The notes beneath the pieces were generated by a model, which saw nothing but the letters and a program-made list of their open reading frames with translations, searched no databases and was not told the origin of the DNA. From assembly GCA_015228815.1 (NCBI GenBank), contig JADGCV010000016.1, forward strand, positions 1 to 64,000: a stretch of 64,000 nt of DNA, read 5' to 3'. This DNA is from Magnetococcales bacterium. GTDB lineage: Bacteria; Pseudomonadota; Magnetococcia; Magnetococcales; UBA8363. Positions 138 to 53,869 of the stretch are shown here, piece by piece. Every line of letters starts with the position of its first letter. The first letter of the stretch is position 1. The position numbers and the translations under genes are program-made.

Positions 138-156
138 CCAGGGGCTTCGCCCCTGG
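138..156. repeat. 8-bp GC-rich stem-loop downstream of the NACHT-FGE gene
   Basis: Arms 138-145 and 149-156 are exact reverse complements with a 3-base loop. Read on the minus strand, the hairpin lies 34 bases after the stop codon of the 1448-residue gene and is preceded by a T-rich run. A short GC-rich hairpin with a GAA-type loop just past a variable region is a known DGR feature. The same shape is also common as a generic proteobacterial extragenic hairpin, so the role is open. Confidence 0.5.
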
Positions 157-190: not shown

Positions 191-3100
191 TCAACGGCTG
201 GCGGGGGCGGCGAGGCGAAAGCCCAGATTGACGCCGCGGTAGCCCGCAAGGCGGCCGTCGCGGAAGCCGACCCGGAGGAGGAAAGCCGGGCGGCGCCAGG
301 ACCCGCCCCTCACCCCCAGACGATCACCTTCGGTGATCGTCTGGGGGTCTAACGGCGTGGCGTGGATTGGTTGCTCGTTGTTCGTATCCAGATTCCGGCA
401 CCACTCCCAAACATTACCCAACAGGTCACAATGGCCCAGAGGACCGTCGCCTGCCGGATAAAGCCCCACTGGCGTCGGACGGCCAACGTTCCGACCAAAA
501 TTAGCCAACTCCGGTGTCGGTTCTGTATTTCCCCAAGGATACTTTCCTCCCTGCAAAGGGGTCGCCGCCGTTTCCCATAACTTTTCACAGGGGAGACGTA
601 TGGTTTTTCCCCGTTGTGCGCTCAACCAACGGCAATACGCCATGGCCTCGAACCAGGAAACACCGGTGACGGGCCGGTTGGGATGTTCTGTCTGGGTGTC
701 ACAATCCTCCGGGCTGGTCCATGAATTTTTTTGCCGAATGGTCCAGGCTTTGTTCCACCAGCGCGGTTCTTCATACCCCCCCTGTTCCACGAACTGTTGA
801 AATTCCTGGACCGTGACCAGATATTTTCCCAGCTTCCAACCCGTTCCGGGGACCTCGATCAACTGTTCCCGGTTCAATCTTGGGTCGCCCCCCCGTCCCA
901 GGGCCTCGGCGGCGGTGATGCGGGTTTCGATGGGGACCTTGGCGGCCCCATCCCTGGTAAAGATGGCCATCGCCTGTTCCAGGAGTTCCCGGTATTTTTT
1001 CTCGATGTCCCGGGGTGGAGGGTAGTTCAGCACAAGCGTGGGGGCGAGCAGTCGTCCCATGATCCCGGCGATCCGGGCGTTGTCGGCCAGGGATGGGGAG
1101 GGACCGTGCAGGGTCAATACCCATCCCAGCAACCGGTCCATCGGTCCCTGGCCTCCGTCCAACAGGCATCCCGGAAGCAGGTCGATGGTTTCCCACCATT
1201 GCAGGTTGTCCAGTCGGGGTTTGATCATGGACCATGCCGCTGTCTCTTCCATCCACGACAGGTGCCGGGCCGCCATGAATTCCTGAAAGGTCAAATGCCA
1301 AAACCGGAGGCGCCCCCGTCCGACTTCTTCGATGATGCCACTGTTGAGGCATTCAAAATGAAGCCAGGCCCTCCCTTTGTGGCGGCGTTCTTCCCCGGAC
1401 AATCCGGGAAAGTCGCGTAACATGATGGGATCGATGGCTTTGAGGGCGTCATCCCAATCCCAAACAGCCTGTTTTCTTTTTCCCCTGTCGCCGCCCATCA
1501 TGGCATAGGCCAGCGCGACCATGGCGCGTTCCGCGAATCCATCGTTGAATCCTGCTTTTTCCCGCAAACTTTTCCGGGAGGCGATCAGCCAGCGGATGAC
1601 CGCCATGTAGACCCGGGACCGCCCTTCGGGCAGTTGCCCTTCATTCCAATGGACGACACACAGGCAGGTGAGCATGACCGGGTTGGTGGCCAGACGGCGG
1701 ATGGTGGGGCGGTCGAGGATGGCTTTTCCCAGTTGATCACCATAACGCCCGGCCTCGCCTCCGGGAGGTTCACCGATCGGCAGACCGTAAAAACAGGCGA
1801 TCCATCGATCCAGAAAGTCCTGGATTTCCTCTTGGCCAAAGGGTTCGATCACCCCATGGAAAAAATCCATGCTTCGCATCAGTTCTACCCCAAAGGGGCG
1901 GCTGGTGACCACGATCCGGGTTTTGTCCCAATGGAGGAGGGCATTTTGAACAATGGCGAACACCCGTTCCCGCAAAGGGTCGCTGTCTACCTCATCGAGG
2001 CCATCCAACAGCAGGACGACCTGTCCATCGGTCAATTTTTGTTCCCAATCGTTCCGCCATTCCTGCACGGCATCCGTCGTGCGGTCGAGGAGGTCGAGCA
2101 GACGAAAACGATCATTCGGGCTGGAGGTGGCTTCTTTGGCCAGGAAAAGTGCCAGGTCCGAAAGACGGAGGAGCAGGGGAAGGGGGGGCGGACCGCTCTC
2201 TTCCATCCCCAAAAACCGTTTGCGCCAGGAGGTGCTGTCGGGACATTCCATCCCCAGGGCATCCCGGGCGAGCATGGTGGCGGCCAGTTTCAGAAACGTG
2301 CTCTTGCCCGCCCCCGGTTGTCCTTCGAGGAGCAAAAGTCGGTGTCTGGGAAACAGATCGGCCAGGGACAGGTGGCCTGCCGTGGTGTCGCCGCGGCTGC
2401 GCAGGGTGGTGAACAACCGTTCGATGGGGTAGCGGTTGGCGTGTTGTCCCCGTCCTTCCTTGGAACTGATCCCCTTGATATCGATGTGATCGATCTGGCC
2501 CAGCAGGGAACGCAGCCACGGGGCGATGTCGATGGTTTCCCGAGGGGGGACGACCCCGGGTGTCCAGGCACGGACCGGAATGCCGTCGGGATTTTCAGGT
2601 CCGAAGGAGACATCATGCAGAAACAGGGCCTCGCCGTTGCCGGTCACCTCCCGTTTTCGCGGCCAAAGGCGGATGGTTTTGTCCGGTTGCAGTGTACCCC
2701 AGGCGTACCCCATGAGTCGGGTTTCATTGCGGGTGCCAAACTGTTCCAGACCGAACAGCGACGCCCCCTGGAGGTAGTAACGGGGTTTGCCACCCGAGAC
2801 GGCGATGGTTTCGCTGCGGTTTTTGTGCATGTGACCGTGCAGGCAGGCCAAAAACCGCTCCGGGGTGTAGAGGGTCTCCCGAAACCGTCCCTGGGCCGCT
2901 TCCGACAACCATGCGGGGGGGTGATGCATGAGCAGCAGGGCGGCCCGATCTTCCAGAATGCTCAAGGGGGATTCCCCTCCCGGTCCGGGGGCAAGCAGGG
3001 TGTGCAACTGTTCCGTGGCCACTTCCAACTGTCCCTGGACCGCATCATCCAGTGCCAGCCACGCCGAATTGAGCCCCACCACCGACAGGGGTATTTTTCC

Positions 3101-4537
3101 CGGCAGGTCCAGGTGAACCAGCAGGTCTCCGGGAAAATGGGACGTGGTAAACGCGATGCCGCGTTGTCGCAGGGGCGGCAGGATGGAACGTTCCAGCCAG
3201 TCCTGATAATTTTTAAAAAGGGGTACGAAATAGGTGGCGTCTTTTTCTTTCCAAAGGGTATCCAGCAGGATGGCGATTGCGGGATGATCCCGACCTTTGT
3301 CGAATTCTTTCAAAATGGCATAGGGGAGGGAGGCCATGCCCTTGGGGCGAACCAGGTCATGATTGCCCGGAACGGGGAGAATCAATGGATCGGGATGATC
3401 TGGGGTCCGCAACCATCCTGATAATTCCTTAAGAAAATGATCCAGGAATTGAAATTCCTCGGGTTGCCCCCTCCAGGTCAAATCCCCGGTGATGAAAATT
3501 ACATCGGGAGGCCCTTCGCGGGCGACCTCTTCAAGGATGCTTTTTTTGAATTCCTGATGTATCTGCCACCAAAGAGATCGGCCAGGGGCCCCCATGTGCA
3601 GATCGGACAGGTGCAGCCAGCGCAGGGGGCGATCGGGCGGAACGGATGGCTCGGGAGACAAAAATCTAAACAATTTCTCCAAGTCCATTCCCAGGGCGCT
3701 GTCGGATGGGATATTGAGTTTGTCTTTGTGGAACTCGTTCAGTTCCAGGGAAGGATGGGCATGCAGGAGGAATATTTCGTTGATGTTCAAGGTGGAGGCA
3801 AGGTTTTTCGTGGGTTCGTTGAATTTGATTCTGAGGTCTGCGATCAGGGTATCTTCGGAAGCCATTTTTTCTGGAATGCGGGTCACGACGGGAACCACCC
3901 CGATCAGTTCGGCACCAGGGGGCCGCATGGTGGCGCGGACACCACGCATGATTGATCGGATTCCCTCTATGTTTTCCTCATTGTTGACAAAAAGACATAC
4001 TGCCCGATCCGCCATCAGGGTCAGGACAGCCCCTCCCATTTCCGTGACGCCGGTACGGGCGTCGATCAAAAGAAAGTCAGGGTTATACTGTTTGCGGATG
4101 ATTTCCTTGAGTTCGATAAAGAAGGGGACGCCCCAATGGGCAGGGCCATAAAAAATATCATGCCAGTTCAATCGGGCAAGACGTTGCCAATAGCCGGGAT
4201 CCCGGGGGTTGCCGGCGGCCAGGAGGCGCATGGGGACAAATCCGGGCCACAGCCCCTCATCCTGTTCGATGAAATGGGGTTCCAACACCAGTTCCGGCAA
4301 TCTTTGGCCGGGATTTTTTTGATCTGTGGCAAAATCATGCAACAGATCGACCATGCCTCCGGAAACCTCGTCTTTCATCCTCAGTTTATAGTGCAGACCC
4401 GGTGCCTCCAGGTCGAAGTCGATCAGAAAGGTTTTCTTCCCTTCTCGGGCCAGATATTTTGCCATACTCGCCAGGGCCAGGGTCCGTCCAACCCCCCCTT
4501 TGTATGAATAAAATACGATGGTCTGTAAATTTGCCAT
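191..4537 (-). CDS. ParA-like ATPase / calcineurin-like phosphoesterase / NACHT NTPase / FGE-domain fusion
   Basis: A 1448-residue four-part protein. Residues 1-290 form a ParA/MinD-like ATPase with the deviant Walker A KGGVGRT at 13-19. Residues 304-640 form a calcineurin-like metallophosphoesterase: D312/H314, D352, N392/H393, H538, H567/H569 are all present, so catalysis is plausible. Residues 730-1100 form a NACHT-type STAND NTPase with Walker A GQPGAGKST at 739-747, Walker B LLLDGLDEVD at 842-851, TSR sensor at 878-880, and the winged-helix motif HLTFQEF near 1081-1087. Residues 1222-1448 are an FGE/sulfatase-modifying (C-type-lectin-like) domain with GNVWEW and RGGSW motifs. The order suggests sensing by the FGE tail, NTP-driven switching, and a phosphoesterase output; that is inference. 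It is last in a cassette with two unknown genes (4556-6039). Its tail looks DGR-diversified (see 209-310). The start is 18 bases after the preceding gene. Confidence 0.9.
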   Translation of the reverse strand: MANLQTIVFYSYKGGVGRTLALASMAKYLAREGKKTFLIDFDLEAPGLHYKLRMKDEVSGGMVDLLHDFATDQKNPGQRLPELVLEPHFIEQDEGLWPGFVPMRLLAAGNPRDPGYWQRLARLNWHDIFYGPAHWGVPFFIELKEIIRKQYNPDFLLIDARTGVTEMGGAVLTLMADRAVCLFVNNEENIEGIRSIMRGVRATMRPPGAELIGVVPVVTRIPEKMASEDTLIADLRIKFNEPTKNLASTLNINEIFLLHAHPSLELNEFHKDKLNIPSDSALGMDLEKLFRFLSPEPSVPPDRPLRWLHLSDLHMGAPGRSLWWQIHQEFKKSILEEVAREGPPDVIFITGDLTWRGQPEEFQFLDHFLKELSGWLRTPDHPDPLILPVPGNHDLVRPKGMASLPYAILKEFDKGRDHPAIAILLDTLWKEKDATYFVPLFKNYQDWLERSILPPLRQRGIAFTTSHFPGDLLVHLDLPGKIPLSVVGLNSAWLALDDAVQGQLEVATEQLHTLLAPGPGGESPLSILEDRAALLLMHHPPAWLSEAAQGRFRETLYTPERFLACLHGHMHKNRSETIAVSGGKPRYYLQGASLFGLEQFGTRNETRLMGYAWGTLQPDKTIRLWPRKREVTGNGEALFLHDVSFGPENPDGIPVRAWTPGVVPPRETIDIAPWLRSLLGQIDHIDIKGISSKEGRGQHANRYPIERLFTTLRSRGDTTAGHLSLADLFPRHRLLLLEGQPGAGKSTFLKLAATMLARDALGMECPDSTSWRKRFLGMEESGPPPLPLLLRLSDLALFLAKEATSSPNDRFRLLDLLDRTTDAVQEWRNDWEQKLTDGQVVLLLDGLDEVDSDPLRERVFAIVQNALLHWDKTRIVVTSRPFGVELMRSMDFFHGVIEPFGQEEIQDFLDRWIACFYGLPIGEPPGGEAGRYGDQLGKAILDRPTIRRLATNPVMLTCLCVVHWNEGQLPEGRSRVYMAVIRWLIASRKSLREKAGFNDGFAERAMVALAYAMMGGDRGKRKQAVWDWDDALKAIDPIMLRDFPGLSGEERRHKGRAWLHFECLNSGIIEEVGRGRLRFWHLTFQEFMAARHLSWMEETAAWSMIKPRLDNLQWWETIDLLPGCLLDGGQGPMDRLLGWVLTLHGPSPSLADNARIAGIMGRLLAPTLVLNYPPPRDIEKKYRELLEQAMAIFTRDGAAKVPIETRITAAEALGRGGDPRLNREQLIEVPGTGWKLGKYLVTVQEFQQFVEQGGYEEPRWWNKAWTIRQKNSWTSPEDCDTQTEHPNRPVTGVSWFEAMAYCRWLSAQRGKTIRLPCEKLWETAATPLQGGKYPWGNTEPTPELANFGRNVGRPTPVGLYPAGDGPLGHCDLLGNVWEWCRNLDTNNEQPIHATPLDPQTITEGDRLGVRGGSWRRPAFLLRVGFRDGRLAGYRGVNLGFRLAAPASR
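209..310 (-). other. Candidate DGR variable region at the 3' end of the NACHT-FGE gene
   Basis: Codons for residues 1410-1443 run from RGGSW to LGFRLA, the segment that is hypermutated in FGE-fold DGR target proteins. Of the 27 codons 1415-1441, 19 end in C. The residues where DGR templates usually have AAC (1415-1416, 1419-1420, 1425, 1427-1429, 1432-1433, 1435-1436) are all NNC here. Only four adenines occur on the coding strand in those 81 bases. This is what A-to-N mutagenesis of AAC codons would leave. The genome is GC-rich, which weakens the argument. No template repeat or reverse transcriptase lies in the window. Confidence 0.5.
312..348. repeat. Near-perfect 17-bp hairpin inside the coding sequence, just before the variable region
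   Basis: Arms 312-328 and 332-348 are exact reverse complements around a 3-base loop. The hairpin encodes residues 1397-1409 between the GNVWEW and RGGSW motifs, a loop of the FGE fold where insertions are tolerated. An uninterrupted 17-bp stem within a reading frame is unlikely by chance. It may be a palindromic element that inserted in frame, or a structure used during variable-region retrohoming. Confidence 0.8.
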
Positions 4538-4555: not shown

Positions 4556-5146
4556 TTAGATGGGTTGGAGAACCTGGAGTCCATAAGCAATTCTTGCTGC
4601 CATTTTCTCGTAGGAAGCCGTAATGGGGTTCTCCAAACAAGAAAATTGCGATTTTGTTTTTTCTTTGACGACTTGTTGCATTCTGGTATTGCAAAATTCC
4701 AAGAGTTCTGATATTTCACGTCGCAGTTGTGCGTCCGAGTTCGCAGCGTCCGACTGTATCAAAATCACCAAAACATTTAGCGCTGGACCGAATTGTTTGT
4801 CTGGCAGGAGTTCGTTTTTTATGCGTTCGAGCGAGTGTCTGATGCGATCTGGTGGCGCCGACATCAAGAGCTGACGTCCCGCTTTTCCGGCTTGGGCCAA
4901 TTGTTCCTCGCTTGCCGTTTTTACCGTTATATTCTTAAGATAGGCAGTGACGCTTGGTAGATCGGGCATGGCGATCTCTTCGGTTGCGGCGTCAAAACCC
5001 GGTTCTGATAATAGCCGGATGACATCCGCATCCTGAATCAAAGGACAGCAATCGTCGGAATAAGGAGGACGTAAAAGACGCAGATTTTTTTCCATTTGAA
5101 CGACGGCCCAACCGTCGCCAGGTGAAATTGCAATGATCTTGATCAT
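4556..5146 (-). CDS. Hypothetical protein, second gene of the NACHT-FGE cassette
   Basis: A 196-residue soluble protein with no signal peptide or membrane segment. I do not recognise the family. The start at 5146 is chosen because its ATG overlaps the TGA of the preceding gene (ATGA at 5143-5146) and GGAAGGA lies 7 bases upstream; an earlier in-frame ATG at 5161 lacks a comparable site. The N-terminus (MIKIIAISPGDGW) looks like a compact beta-rich start, and the middle is predicted helical. Position between an unknown gene and a NACHT effector makes it a candidate accessory or regulator of a conflict system. That role is inferred from context only. Confidence 0.75.
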   Translation of the reverse strand: MIKIIAISPGDGWAVVQMEKNLRLLRPPYSDDCCPLIQDADVIRLLSEPGFDAATEEIAMPDLPSVTAYLKNITVKTASEEQLAQAGKAGRQLLMSAPPDRIRHSLERIKNELLPDKQFGPALNVLVILIQSDAANSDAQLRREISELLEFCNTRMQQVVKEKTKSQFSCLENPITASYEKMAARIAYGLQVLQPI

Positions 5147-6039
5147 GTAATGTCCTTCCATTCAAGATTTTGCCTCATCATGATGGTATTGACTGTTTCA
5201 AAAGCGCTTACCAGGAGCATGTCGGCTTCGGACAGTGTTCCAAAACTGACATTGTTACTGCCTAAATCATAGAGTCGATCATAATCACTCTTCTTTATAC
5301 GGATTTCTTGAACATAGGGTAACGTCAGGGGTTGGACAAAGATGGCTTCGATGTATTCCATTTCAGAGCAAACATTTTTTGACCATTCTTGTCTTGGCCA
5401 GGAATCCAGATCGGGGCGGTGTTTGAGTGCCATCAGGTGGTGGCGTTGGGCGTGACTCGCGATAGAGGTTTTCAATTTTGTTTCTTCCAGCTGGTTTTCA
5501 TGATTCATGAATATTTTCAGACTGTCTCCGATTAGATAAGCCACGGGGGAGAAGGGCCTGTCCCAAAATCGATTATCGATGACAACGCATATTTCTCCGT
5601 ATTTGGTGGCGCCAAGACCACCAATATTCAAAGCTCCATAGTGAAATTCATGGCCACGTTGAAAACTCTCCTCGAACCGGGTTCGCTTGGTATGCAATTC
5701 ATTGATGTCTTTATTGTCGCTAAGTTTTTTCCTGATCCATTCCGCAGGGGACTGCTGTCCTTCCCTTGTGTAGGTCGCAGCTTTCTTTTCTGCCCATTCA
5801 TGAATATTTTCCAGTTTGTTTGTGGAAAGAAAGGCGTGCAAGGTGACGAAGCGCATGTTGACCGTCACATTTCCCTTTTTAAGAACCAATGCGCTCATGT
5901 CACGCAAGGCGGTTGCGTTGGCGCCCGTGCCTGAGCTGTGTGTTGCGAACTGTTGTTCCAGGAGCGGATCATTGGTCCGGGCCAGGGCAAACAGGTCCAG
6001 GGGCGTGGGGGAAGGGGCGGCGGAAGGGGTCATCGTCAT
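5143..6039 (-). CDS. Hypothetical protein, first gene of the NACHT-FGE cassette
   Basis: A 298-residue protein without signal peptide or obvious membrane span. The central part (about residues 60-165) contains the stretches LHAFLST, HYGALNIGGLGATKYGE and ICVVIDNRFW. The second has a glycine-rich turn followed by YGE, which made me consider an ADP-ribosyltransferase-like or toxin-like fold, but I cannot support it. The C-terminal third is charged and helical. Translation is coupled to the next gene through a 4-base overlap. Together with the 196- and 1448-residue genes it forms a tight three-gene minus-strand unit with its promoter in the 6040-6266 gap. Confidence 0.75.
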   Translation of the reverse strand: MTMTPSAAPSPTPLDLFALARTNDPLLEQQFATHSSGTGANATALRDMSALVLKKGNVTVNMRFVTLHAFLSTNKLENIHEWAEKKAATYTREGQQSPAEWIRKKLSDNKDINELHTKRTRFEESFQRGHEFHYGALNIGGLGATKYGEICVVIDNRFWDRPFSPVAYLIGDSLKIFMNHENQLEETKLKTSIASHAQRHHLMALKHRPDLDSWPRQEWSKNVCSEMEYIEAIFVQPLTLPYVQEIRIKKSDYDRLYDLGSNNVSFGTLSEADMLLVSAFETVNTIMMRQNLEWKDIT

Positions 6040-51771: not shown

Positions 51772-53682
51772 TCATTGGATTGTTTCGGTCGTTTTTTCCA
51801 TGACCAGCCGGAATCCCACCATCGGACTGACCAGTTTCGCCGACGCCGCCATGCGGCTGGCACAGCGGCATTCCCGCCACGGACTGCGCCAACAACCGCC
51901 CCGGAGACTGATTTTTTCCCGGGTGTCGGCTCCCCTGGGATTGTCCGCCGGACTGGTCCGATAATAGTGCGGATCGTAACCGTCCGCGGTCCATTCCCAC
52001 ACATTCCCCAGCATGTCGAACAATCCCCAGGAGTTCGCCGCTTTTTCGCGCACGGGATGGGTTTTTTCCGCGGCATTCGTTTTGATCCAGGCATGATCGG
52101 GCAGCGCCTCGGCCCCTCCGGGAAAAGGAAAGGGGGTCCGGGTGCCGGCACGGGCGGCATATTCCCATTCCGCCTCCGTCGGCAGGCGAAAGTTTTTCTT
52201 TCCCTTGGTATATTTGTTCAAACGTTCGAGAAATTTCTGTACCATGTTCCAACTGACCCGTTCCACCGGATACTGTCCGAGTTCGGGAGAAAAAAGCCCC
52301 TTGGGATAATCACCCATGACACGATTCCAGGTCTGCCAGGTCACCGGCGTTCTTCCGAGCCAGAATTCGTTCAGGGTGATCGGGTGCAGTGGCCCTTCAT
52401 CGTCCTTTCGTCCCGATTCTCCCGCCTCCGAACCCATCTGAAACGTTCCCCCGGCGATCCAGACAAATTCAGCCTTGGTCAATCCTTCGAGCACAATCCT
52501 GGGAGAAACGGTTTTTCTTCGAGGTTCCTGGAGGTCACCACTGTTTGGCGCGCCGATGATCGCTTTGGGCGGGACGATTTCCCTGGCGGGTGGCGGAATG
52601 GACCCCGACGGGACAGGCGTGGGCGGCTGTTCCTTGGGAACGGGGGCGACCTCGGCGGTGGCAAATTCGTTGATGGAGGCGATAAAACTGCGCCAACTGC
52701 TTTTTTTCCGTTTGACTTCCGTGGGCTGGGGTTCGTTCAGCGGACCCGTGTTGTTTCGGGCCAACATTTTCTTTGCCGGCGCCGGGAGGGCCATGGGTTC
52801 GATTCCCAGAAGTTTGCGCCACTCCTTGATCGATTGCGGTCGATCGGTCTCCAGGACCTCCAGGGCTTTATCGACCGCGGCGAGAAACTTCGGGCTGTAC
52901 CGTCCCCTGCCCATCTCCACGGCCGCCTTCATGGGGTCCGGATCGTTGCGCAGCCGTGCCGCGATCCGGAGCGCGGCATCGGCCGGTTTTCGTCCGGAAA
53001 TGCACCGGTAGATCACGCCACCCATGGCGTAGATGTCCGACCAGGGACCCTGCCGTTCTCCCGAGGAATCATACTGCTCGAACGGCGAATATCCCAGGCT
53101 CAGCAGGCTGGTCATGTCATCCCCGACCGACTGCCGCGCCGAACCGAAATCAAGAATGACCGGCGAGCCATCCTGTCGAATCAATATGTTGGGCGGTTTG
53201 ATGTCGCGATGAATGAAATTGGCCTGGTGAAGGACCTCAAGACCATCGAGAAGGGGCGGGAGCATTTTTCGCAATTCCTCCTCGGCCAGGGTCTTCTTTC
53301 GTTTGAGAAGGCCATCCATCCCCTCTCCCTCGACATACTCCATCACCATGTAGGCGGTGTTGGCATCGCGAAAAAAACTGACGACCCGGACGATGGCCGG
53401 GTGACGAAAACGGGCGAGGGTTTGCGCCTCCTTGAGGAACCTTTGCAGTCCCCACTCGAATTGATCCTTGCAGGAAGGGGAATTGGGATGAACCTGACGG
53501 CTTTCGGTCCGCGAGGCGAAGGTGCCGGGGAGGTACTCCTTGACAGCGACCAGTTGGTCCTGGTTGGTGTCCCGCCCCAGATAGGTGATGCCGAACCCCC
53601 CTTTGCCAAGAACCTTGAGGATCTCGAACCAGAGGATTTTCGAGCCGGCGGGAAGCGCGTCGGTAAATTGCGTGGAACTCAT
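51772..53682 (-). CDS. Ser/Thr protein kinase fused to an FGE domain
   Basis: A 636-residue protein. Residues 15-290 are a Hanks-type kinase with GKGGFG (26-31), catalytic lysine K48, HRD at 158-160 and DFG at 178-180, so it should be active. A Pro-rich linker (about 300-400) leads to an FGE/sulfatase-modifying domain (402-628) with GNVWEW and RGGCW. The FGE cysteine pair is not in the catalytic register, so the domain is probably a binding module. Its final segment lacks the NNC codon pattern of a DGR target. The ATG at 53682 precedes the kinase domain; 49 upstream residues are unremarkable. Confidence 0.9.
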   Translation of the reverse strand: MSSTQFTDALPAGSKILWFEILKVLGKGGFGITYLGRDTNQDQLVAVKEYLPGTFASRTESRQVHPNSPSCKDQFEWGLQRFLKEAQTLARFRHPAIVRVVSFFRDANTAYMVMEYVEGEGMDGLLKRKKTLAEEELRKMLPPLLDGLEVLHQANFIHRDIKPPNILIRQDGSPVILDFGSARQSVGDDMTSLLSLGYSPFEQYDSSGERQGPWSDIYAMGGVIYRCISGRKPADAALRIAARLRNDPDPMKAAVEMGRGRYSPKFLAAVDKALEVLETDRPQSIKEWRKLLGIEPMALPAPAKKMLARNNTGPLNEPQPTEVKRKKSSWRSFIASINEFATAEVAPVPKEQPPTPVPSGSIPPPAREIVPPKAIIGAPNSGDLQEPRRKTVSPRIVLEGLTKAEFVWIAGGTFQMGSEAGESGRKDDEGPLHPITLNEFWLGRTPVTWQTWNRVMGDYPKGLFSPELGQYPVERVSWNMVQKFLERLNKYTKGKKNFRLPTEAEWEYAARAGTRTPFPFPGGAEALPDHAWIKTNAAEKTHPVREKAANSWGLFDMLGNVWEWTADGYDPHYYRTSPADNPRGADTREKISLRGGCWRSPWRECRCASRMAASAKLVSPMVGFRLVMEKTTETIQ

Positions 53683-53869
53683 GAAACTGGGTCCTGACCT
53701 TCCGGGTTGGCGGGTGCAAATGATCCACCGTTGCCAATACCCGGCAATTTGGGAGATGGCGTCCCCTGCCGAAATACCCTGGACCTTGGCGATGCCCATG
53801 CATCGGTATAACCGATGGCGTCCCGACAAGGCAAGTGACCAATCGGATCGGGTGGGGCGAAGGGGGCGA

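Follow-up and report, generated by a model that had tools for sequence, protein, structure and literature searches.

A NACHT-phosphoesterase protein of a Magnetococcales bacterium whose C-terminal tail is very probably diversified in trans by a retroelement on another contig

Results

The variable repeat and its template

We consider a stretch of 64,000 nucleotides (nt) from a Magnetococcales bacterium (assembly GCA_015228815.1, contig JADGCV010000016.1, here contig C16, positions 1 to 64,000; the whole stretch is called the window). At its left end, a gene on the minus strand encodes a large NACHT protein with a C-terminal FGE/C-type-lectin tail. A first-pass annotation, made from the letters alone, had proposed that positions 209-310 of this gene are the variable region of a diversity-generating retroelement (DGR). 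The gene, its domains and the repeat are as follows.

191-4537, minus strand: target gene, 1448 residues, with a KGGVGR-ATPase, a metallophosphoesterase, NACHT and an FGE/C-type-lectin tail (Pfam and NCBIfam)
200-309, minus strand: DGR variable repeat (VR) of 110 nt, made of the last codons of the FGE domain and delimited by the 110-nt alignment with its template repeat (TR)
209-841, minus strand: FGE-sulfatase/C-type-lectin domain, residues 1233-1443, containing the VR (PF03781, 140.4 bits)
1799-2368, minus strand: NACHT NTPase, residues ~724-913 (PF05729, 29.4 bits)
2822-3622, minus strand: calcineurin-like phosphoesterase, residues 306-572 (PF00149, 41.4 bits)
3941-4525, minus strand: KGGVGR-motif variant of a ParA/MinD-like ATPase, residues 5-199 (NF047398, 145.7 bits; cut-off 90)

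Read on the minus strand, 209-310 is RGGSWRRPAFLLRVGFRDGRLAGYRGVNLGFRLA. Among the 27 codons that follow RGGSW, 19 end in C, and 4 of the 81 bases are adenines (counted by eye); the recount is identical to the figures of the first-pass annotation. The background of the target gene is 37% codons ending in C and 22% A, and the 27-codon windows of the tail contain the gene-wide maximum of 21 such codons. Counts of 18 or more in 27 codons occur in two further parts of the gene as well, so the composition taken alone is suggestive and not decisive.

A search of the whole genome with the tail DNA gives the TR at C9:105799-105908, a near-repeat with almost only adenine differences, as had been predicted. 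Over the 110-nt alignment the window VR is changed at 16 of the 20 template adenines and at 1 of the 90 other bases (Fisher P = 1.1e-14), the sole non-adenine difference being C28T. The TR, whose translation would be GGSWNNPASNLRVGNRNDNLAGNRNDNLGFRLAAPA, has many AAC codons; all eight of them (8/8) are codons ending in C in the VR, in agreement with the earlier reading of the usual AAC positions, while the lone AAT is kept. About 6e11 protein variants can be reached from the 20 adenines, and stop codons are never created. The other FGE protein of the window, a kinase-FGE protein at 51772-53829, gives no match in this search, in line with the first-pass annotation, which saw no such tail there.

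The TR belongs to a cassette on contig C9 with the order HTH-Avd-TR-RT, that is, a helix-turn-helix (HTH) gene, Avd, the TR and a reverse transcriptase (RT). The RT (C9:106040-107029) adjoins the TR, matches PF00078 and has the motifs IGNLTSQ and YMDD. Avd matches PF22296 at 44.0 bits (cut-off 40) and scores 45 bits with the stricter NCBIfam equivalog model, under its cut-off of 80. Both genes are intact. In 398 genomes of the phylum that were searched, the HTH gene is confined to the five genomes with this DGR. An RVT_1 profile search of the 99.2% complete assembly finds two RTs, of which only the one on C9 has a matching TR. The first-pass annotation had pointed both to the sequence left of position 1 and to the whole genome for an RT and Avd: the genome holds both genes, beside the TR on C9, while to the left there is only the end of contig C16.

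Remote repeats and a single donor locus

The tail-DNA search gives six strong further copies, namely the TR and five other VRs, which makes six VRs in all, spread over three contigs. On C9 the targets are a NACHT-FGE protein, a TIR-FGE protein and a protein with FGE alone, whose VR has diverged. On C6 they are a NACHT-FGE and a TIR-FGE protein on either side of a relic of the HTH gene; here the domain names come from the resemblance to the C9 pair and from NCBIfam and PADLOC matches of the TIR-FGE protein. For neither of the two NACHT-FGE proteins does Pfam give a family match in the N-terminal part. We infer from their sequences, including the motif DxxGFS...GDGYY at the N-terminus of the C9 copy, that both N-termini may resemble class III nucleotidyl cyclases. 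In the C9 TIR-FGE target (L023 7163-8530, minus strand), two bases are deleted from the VR and the reading frame is shifted; this may be an assembly error or the result of retrohoming that failed.

On C16, no DGR gene lies within reach of the window VR. Because the six VRs are spread over three contigs, this VR is most likely diversified in trans. We are highly confident that 200-309 is a genuine VR and that the C9 cassette is its donor in trans.

A second DGR was considered at the other RT of the genome (G000 C10:105000-111000; RT with IGNLTSQ at 2486-4243 of locus L025), which is flanked by two DUF1566-like genes. Their tails share an identical stretch of ~20 bases near their ends. This candidate was rejected, because the differences between the tails show no preference for adenines and a template was not found. 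On another contig (G000 C8:68000-75000, L026), a phosphoesterase-like FGE gene (1115-3082) and an FGE gene (3209-4111) have GSW...GFRCAR-type tails that resemble the targets of another DGR family (G044:C8, G045:C39, G042:C7, G048:C207); this contig carries neither of the two RTs.

Relatives and orthologs

Among 47 further genomes of the order covered by the search, 4 have an ortholog of the RT (75-78% identity). These four relatives have their own TR and their own VRs, 10 in all, and every one of them is adenine-biased. When the 16 VRs of the five genomes are each compared with their own TR, they fall into two groups. All ten VRs with an intact 3' hairpin and an intact Avd (10/10) have 0-1 non-adenine change; the remaining six, in which the hairpin is lost or degraded or the Avd of G042 is interrupted, have 2-14. 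The two groups do not overlap (1 in 8008, exact P 1.2e-4). The two VRs of G042, where a repeat interrupts Avd, have 6 and 9 non-adenine changes. That repeat, with inverted ends, breaks the 3' part of Avd at ~7769-7895 of C107 (L085), and the second VR of G042 is adjoined by a repeat of the same kind.

In the named genome collection, the sole relative found is Magnetococcales bacterium DCbin4. Up to the VR, the full-length orthologs of the target gene in the two genomes share 84-88% DNA identity. Within the VR they differ at 16 of the 20 template-adenine sites and at 6 of the 90 others, which bears out the proposal that the sensor tail is diversified. A search of the DCbin4 genome gives no RT ortholog and no HTH gene; its hairpin folds poorly and its tail has started to change at constant sites. 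In DCbin4, loss of the machinery and decay of the tail coincide.

The target is the third gene of a conserved, apparent operon with two partners.

4556-5161, minus strand: upstream partner gene, 201 residues, of no known family, found directly upstream of the homologues in G044, G045 and G004
5143-6039, minus strand: upstream partner gene, 298 residues, of no known family, kept with the 201-residue gene at the same loci

The homologues in G045 (66%) and G004 (56%) lie in the same three-gene operon and have no VR tail, and therefore the VR would have been either captured in the lineage of the window or lost elsewhere. Between the window and DCbin4, identity is 83% for the large protein and, within the matched stretches, 43% and 60% for the two partners; the two small genes diverge much faster than the KGGVGR protein between related species.

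Hairpins, TGTCA arrays and the HTH gene

We turn to the sequence around the VR, where four further features are found.

138-156, minus strand: DNA hairpin CCAGGGGC-GAA-GCCCCTGG, 8-bp stem, 43 nt 3' of the VR
82-131, no strand assigned: TGTCACTTT array, an inverted pair with a further TGTCA copy, beyond the hairpin
1-80, no strand assigned: end of a dispersed repeat with eight genomic copies, and contig break point
312-348, minus strand: 17-bp perfect inverted repeat with a GAA loop, in the coding sequence, abutting the 5' side of the VR

The window hairpin is perfect and folds as DNA at -9.7 kcal/mol (z -4.1). The same element stands 3' of the other well-kept VRs (10/10 intact), 37-48 nt away, in the form CCAGGGG(G)C-GNA-GC(C)CCCTGG or in a version with a CTTG loop; in ~160 kb scanned, one similar hairpin lies away from any VR. 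In DNA, CTTG loops and GNA triloops with a C-G closing pair are exceptionally stable, a property that would suit an element acting as DNA better than one acting as RNA. A plain terminator is not favoured, since neither the window VR nor G004 has a T-run after the stem.

Beyond the hairpin, TGTCACTTT repeats in both orientations adjoin most VRs, the remote ones included. The 4.2-Mb genome contains the exact TTTGTCACTTT site 14 times, and 11 of these occurrences are ~60-215 nt 3' of a VR, with five VRs on three contigs involved. The placement in the relatives is alike, including a remote VR of G004 whose flank has no relic of HTH, Avd or RT. The exceptions are the VRs at C9:108777 and G004 C151, which have neither hairpin nor array. 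Judged by placement, the arrays may be either the DGR operon's operator, duplicated together with the VRs, or a signal that addresses the targets. It is doubtful that the HTH protein is an addressing factor, which would bind the TGTCACTTT arrays found 60-215 nt 3' of VRs and thereby mark remote targets for retrohoming. If this is true, any gene that gains the portable cassette of VR, hairpin and TGTCA array would join the diversification programme; the KGGVGR-phosphoesterase-NACHT operon seems to have acquired such a cassette in this lineage.

The inverted repeat at 312-348 is the longest hairpin with a 3-5-nt loop in the 64-kb window and has no counterpart in the DCbin4 ortholog. At the matching position, several NACHT-FGE targets carry a shorter GNA-loop hairpin of 5-7 bp. 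The 312-348 repeat is possibly the outcome of palindrome correction by template switching.

Domains of the target protein

The ATPase domain has a deviant P-loop, KGGVGRT, at residue 13. The metal-site motifs of the phosphoesterase are complete (LSDLHMG, TGDL, PGNHD, MHHPP and HGHMHK), and the Walker A (GQPGAGKST) and Walker B (LLLDGLDE) motifs of NACHT can be read from the translation. The FGE domain matches the DGR protein TvpA (2y3c, E=1.8e-10); an AlphaFold model of the domain, built from four sequences, has a pLDDT of 38.6 and is too poor for mapping the variable residues. The models of anti-phage phosphoesterases (NF053861 and NF053862) and PADLOC candidates give partial matches, far under the models' cut-offs.

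Discussion

Combining this information, we propose the following mechanism. The C9 DGR (HTH, Avd, TR and RT) would reverse-transcribe its template RNA, making errors at adenines. The mutated cDNA would replace the VR of the target gene in trans, landing by way of the constant 3' end of the VR and the hairpin at 138-156. By homology, the variable tail would form the ligand-binding face of the C-type-lectin fold. The product would be a NACHT sensor with a randomised C-terminal patch, joined to a phosphoesterase and a ParA-like ATPase and accompanied by its two operon partners; a ligand on the variable tail would trigger NACHT oligomerisation and then the action of the effector.

Other explanations of the tail have to be weighed. 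GC-rich codon use or protein constraint, the alternative that the first-pass annotation had itself named, could yield a C-ending, adenine-poor tail without a DGR, as the two further C-rich stretches of the gene illustrate; it is refuted by a TR whose adenines lie exactly at the differing sites, beside an RT and Avd, and the same pattern recurs in four other genomes, so we leave it almost no probability. A second DGR, unseen to the left of position 1, might have diversified the VR in cis, given that the contig ends there within a dispersed repeat. It is very unlikely, however: the 99.2% complete assembly has two RTs with a matching TR only at that of C9, and this TR agrees with the window VR at 89 of 90 constant sites.

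Is the window VR still being rewritten? The VR could be a fossil of past diversification, with retrohoming to this remote copy now stopped, and several observations weigh against continuing activity. Because of C28T, at least one ordinary mutation has occurred since the last full replacement of the VR; the contig of the target gene has no RT; and in the DCbin4 ortholog the DGR core was not found and the hairpin is degraded. The comparison is between species, with one genome per species, which bears on any claim of present activity, and the correlation with hairpins may partly reflect the age of decaying loci. Even so, the match to the TR is kept at 89 of 90 non-adenine sites, and the perfect hairpin and intact RT and Avd are unlike the situation of the decaying VRs on C6 and at C9:108777. 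We consider the fossil unlikely and a VR that the C9 DGR would still replace the better account.

As for the ligand, we lean towards a diversified anti-phage, NLR-like sensor. The tail may possibly bind a non-phage ligand instead (self/non-self or environmental) and signal via the phosphoesterase: FGE/C-lectin tails in DGRs bind varied ligands, and defence is not proved by the presence of ParA-like and phosphoesterase domains. This we hold to be clearly the less probable role, since the NACHT and TIR architecture of the targets points to conflict systems, as does the partial similarity to NF053861/NF053862 and the PADLOC candidates.

Comparison with known systems

The hairpin data can be compared with the BPP-1 DGR of a Bordetella phage (Guo et al. 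2011, PMC3240598), in which the hairpin is experimentally required; the pattern of VRs with intact hairpins fits this requirement. Adenine mutagenesis, Avd, RT and a GC-rich 3' hairpin of 7-10 bp are common to both. The present system differs in being cellular and multi-target, in its loops (a GAA/GTA/GCA triloop or CTTG, against a consensus 4-nt GRNA loop) and in the gap between hairpin and VR (37-48 nt, against 4-34 in the phage set). The intact and broken hairpins, together with the genome with a broken Avd, provide a natural experiment on the homogenisation of remote VRs.

The target resembles KGGVGR systems (NF047398; PADLOC candidate PDC-M28B) in its two small upstream genes, which also stand beside KGGVGR homologs of other genera, but here the ATPase is fused to a phosphoesterase-NACHT-FGE protein with a DGR tail. 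A link of DGRs, FGE/FGS, MinD/ParA and calcineurin domains in conflict systems has been described (eLife 2020, PMC7159879). The three-gene operon with and without a VR offers a before/after pair for the capture of a sensor by a DGR.

No DGR of Magnetococcales came up in the literature searched, a negative that does not show that none has been described. Magnetococcales are mostly single cells and would be an exception to the reported link between DGRs and multicellularity.

The closest known systems are the DGR-diversified NACHT/STAND-CLec proteins regarded as putative antigen sensors, for which diversification in trans has been argued (Dore 2024, PMC10907252). Like the sensors of Thiohalocapsa PB-PSB1 and clade 5D relatives described there, ours have NACHT with a C-terminal FGE/CLec VR, N-terminal effectors including TIR, and several targets, of which the remote ones are, here most likely, diversified in trans. 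Unlike them, they come from a Magnetococcales relative, have a KGGVGR-ATPase and a calcineurin phosphoesterase ahead of NACHT (the word 'phosphoesterase' is absent from the main text of that paper), include an HTH gene in the core cassette and have TGTCACTTT arrays by most VRs. The kind of system is already known; new are the effector architecture, the lineage-specific module of HTH gene and TGTCA repeats, and the lineage itself. The analysis thereby adds a lineage in which a one-locus, many-target DGR would diversify NLR-like sensors whose effector heads (phosphoesterase, TIR, ParA-like ATPase) can be exchanged, an arrangement that comes near to a bacterial counterpart of a receptor repertoire.
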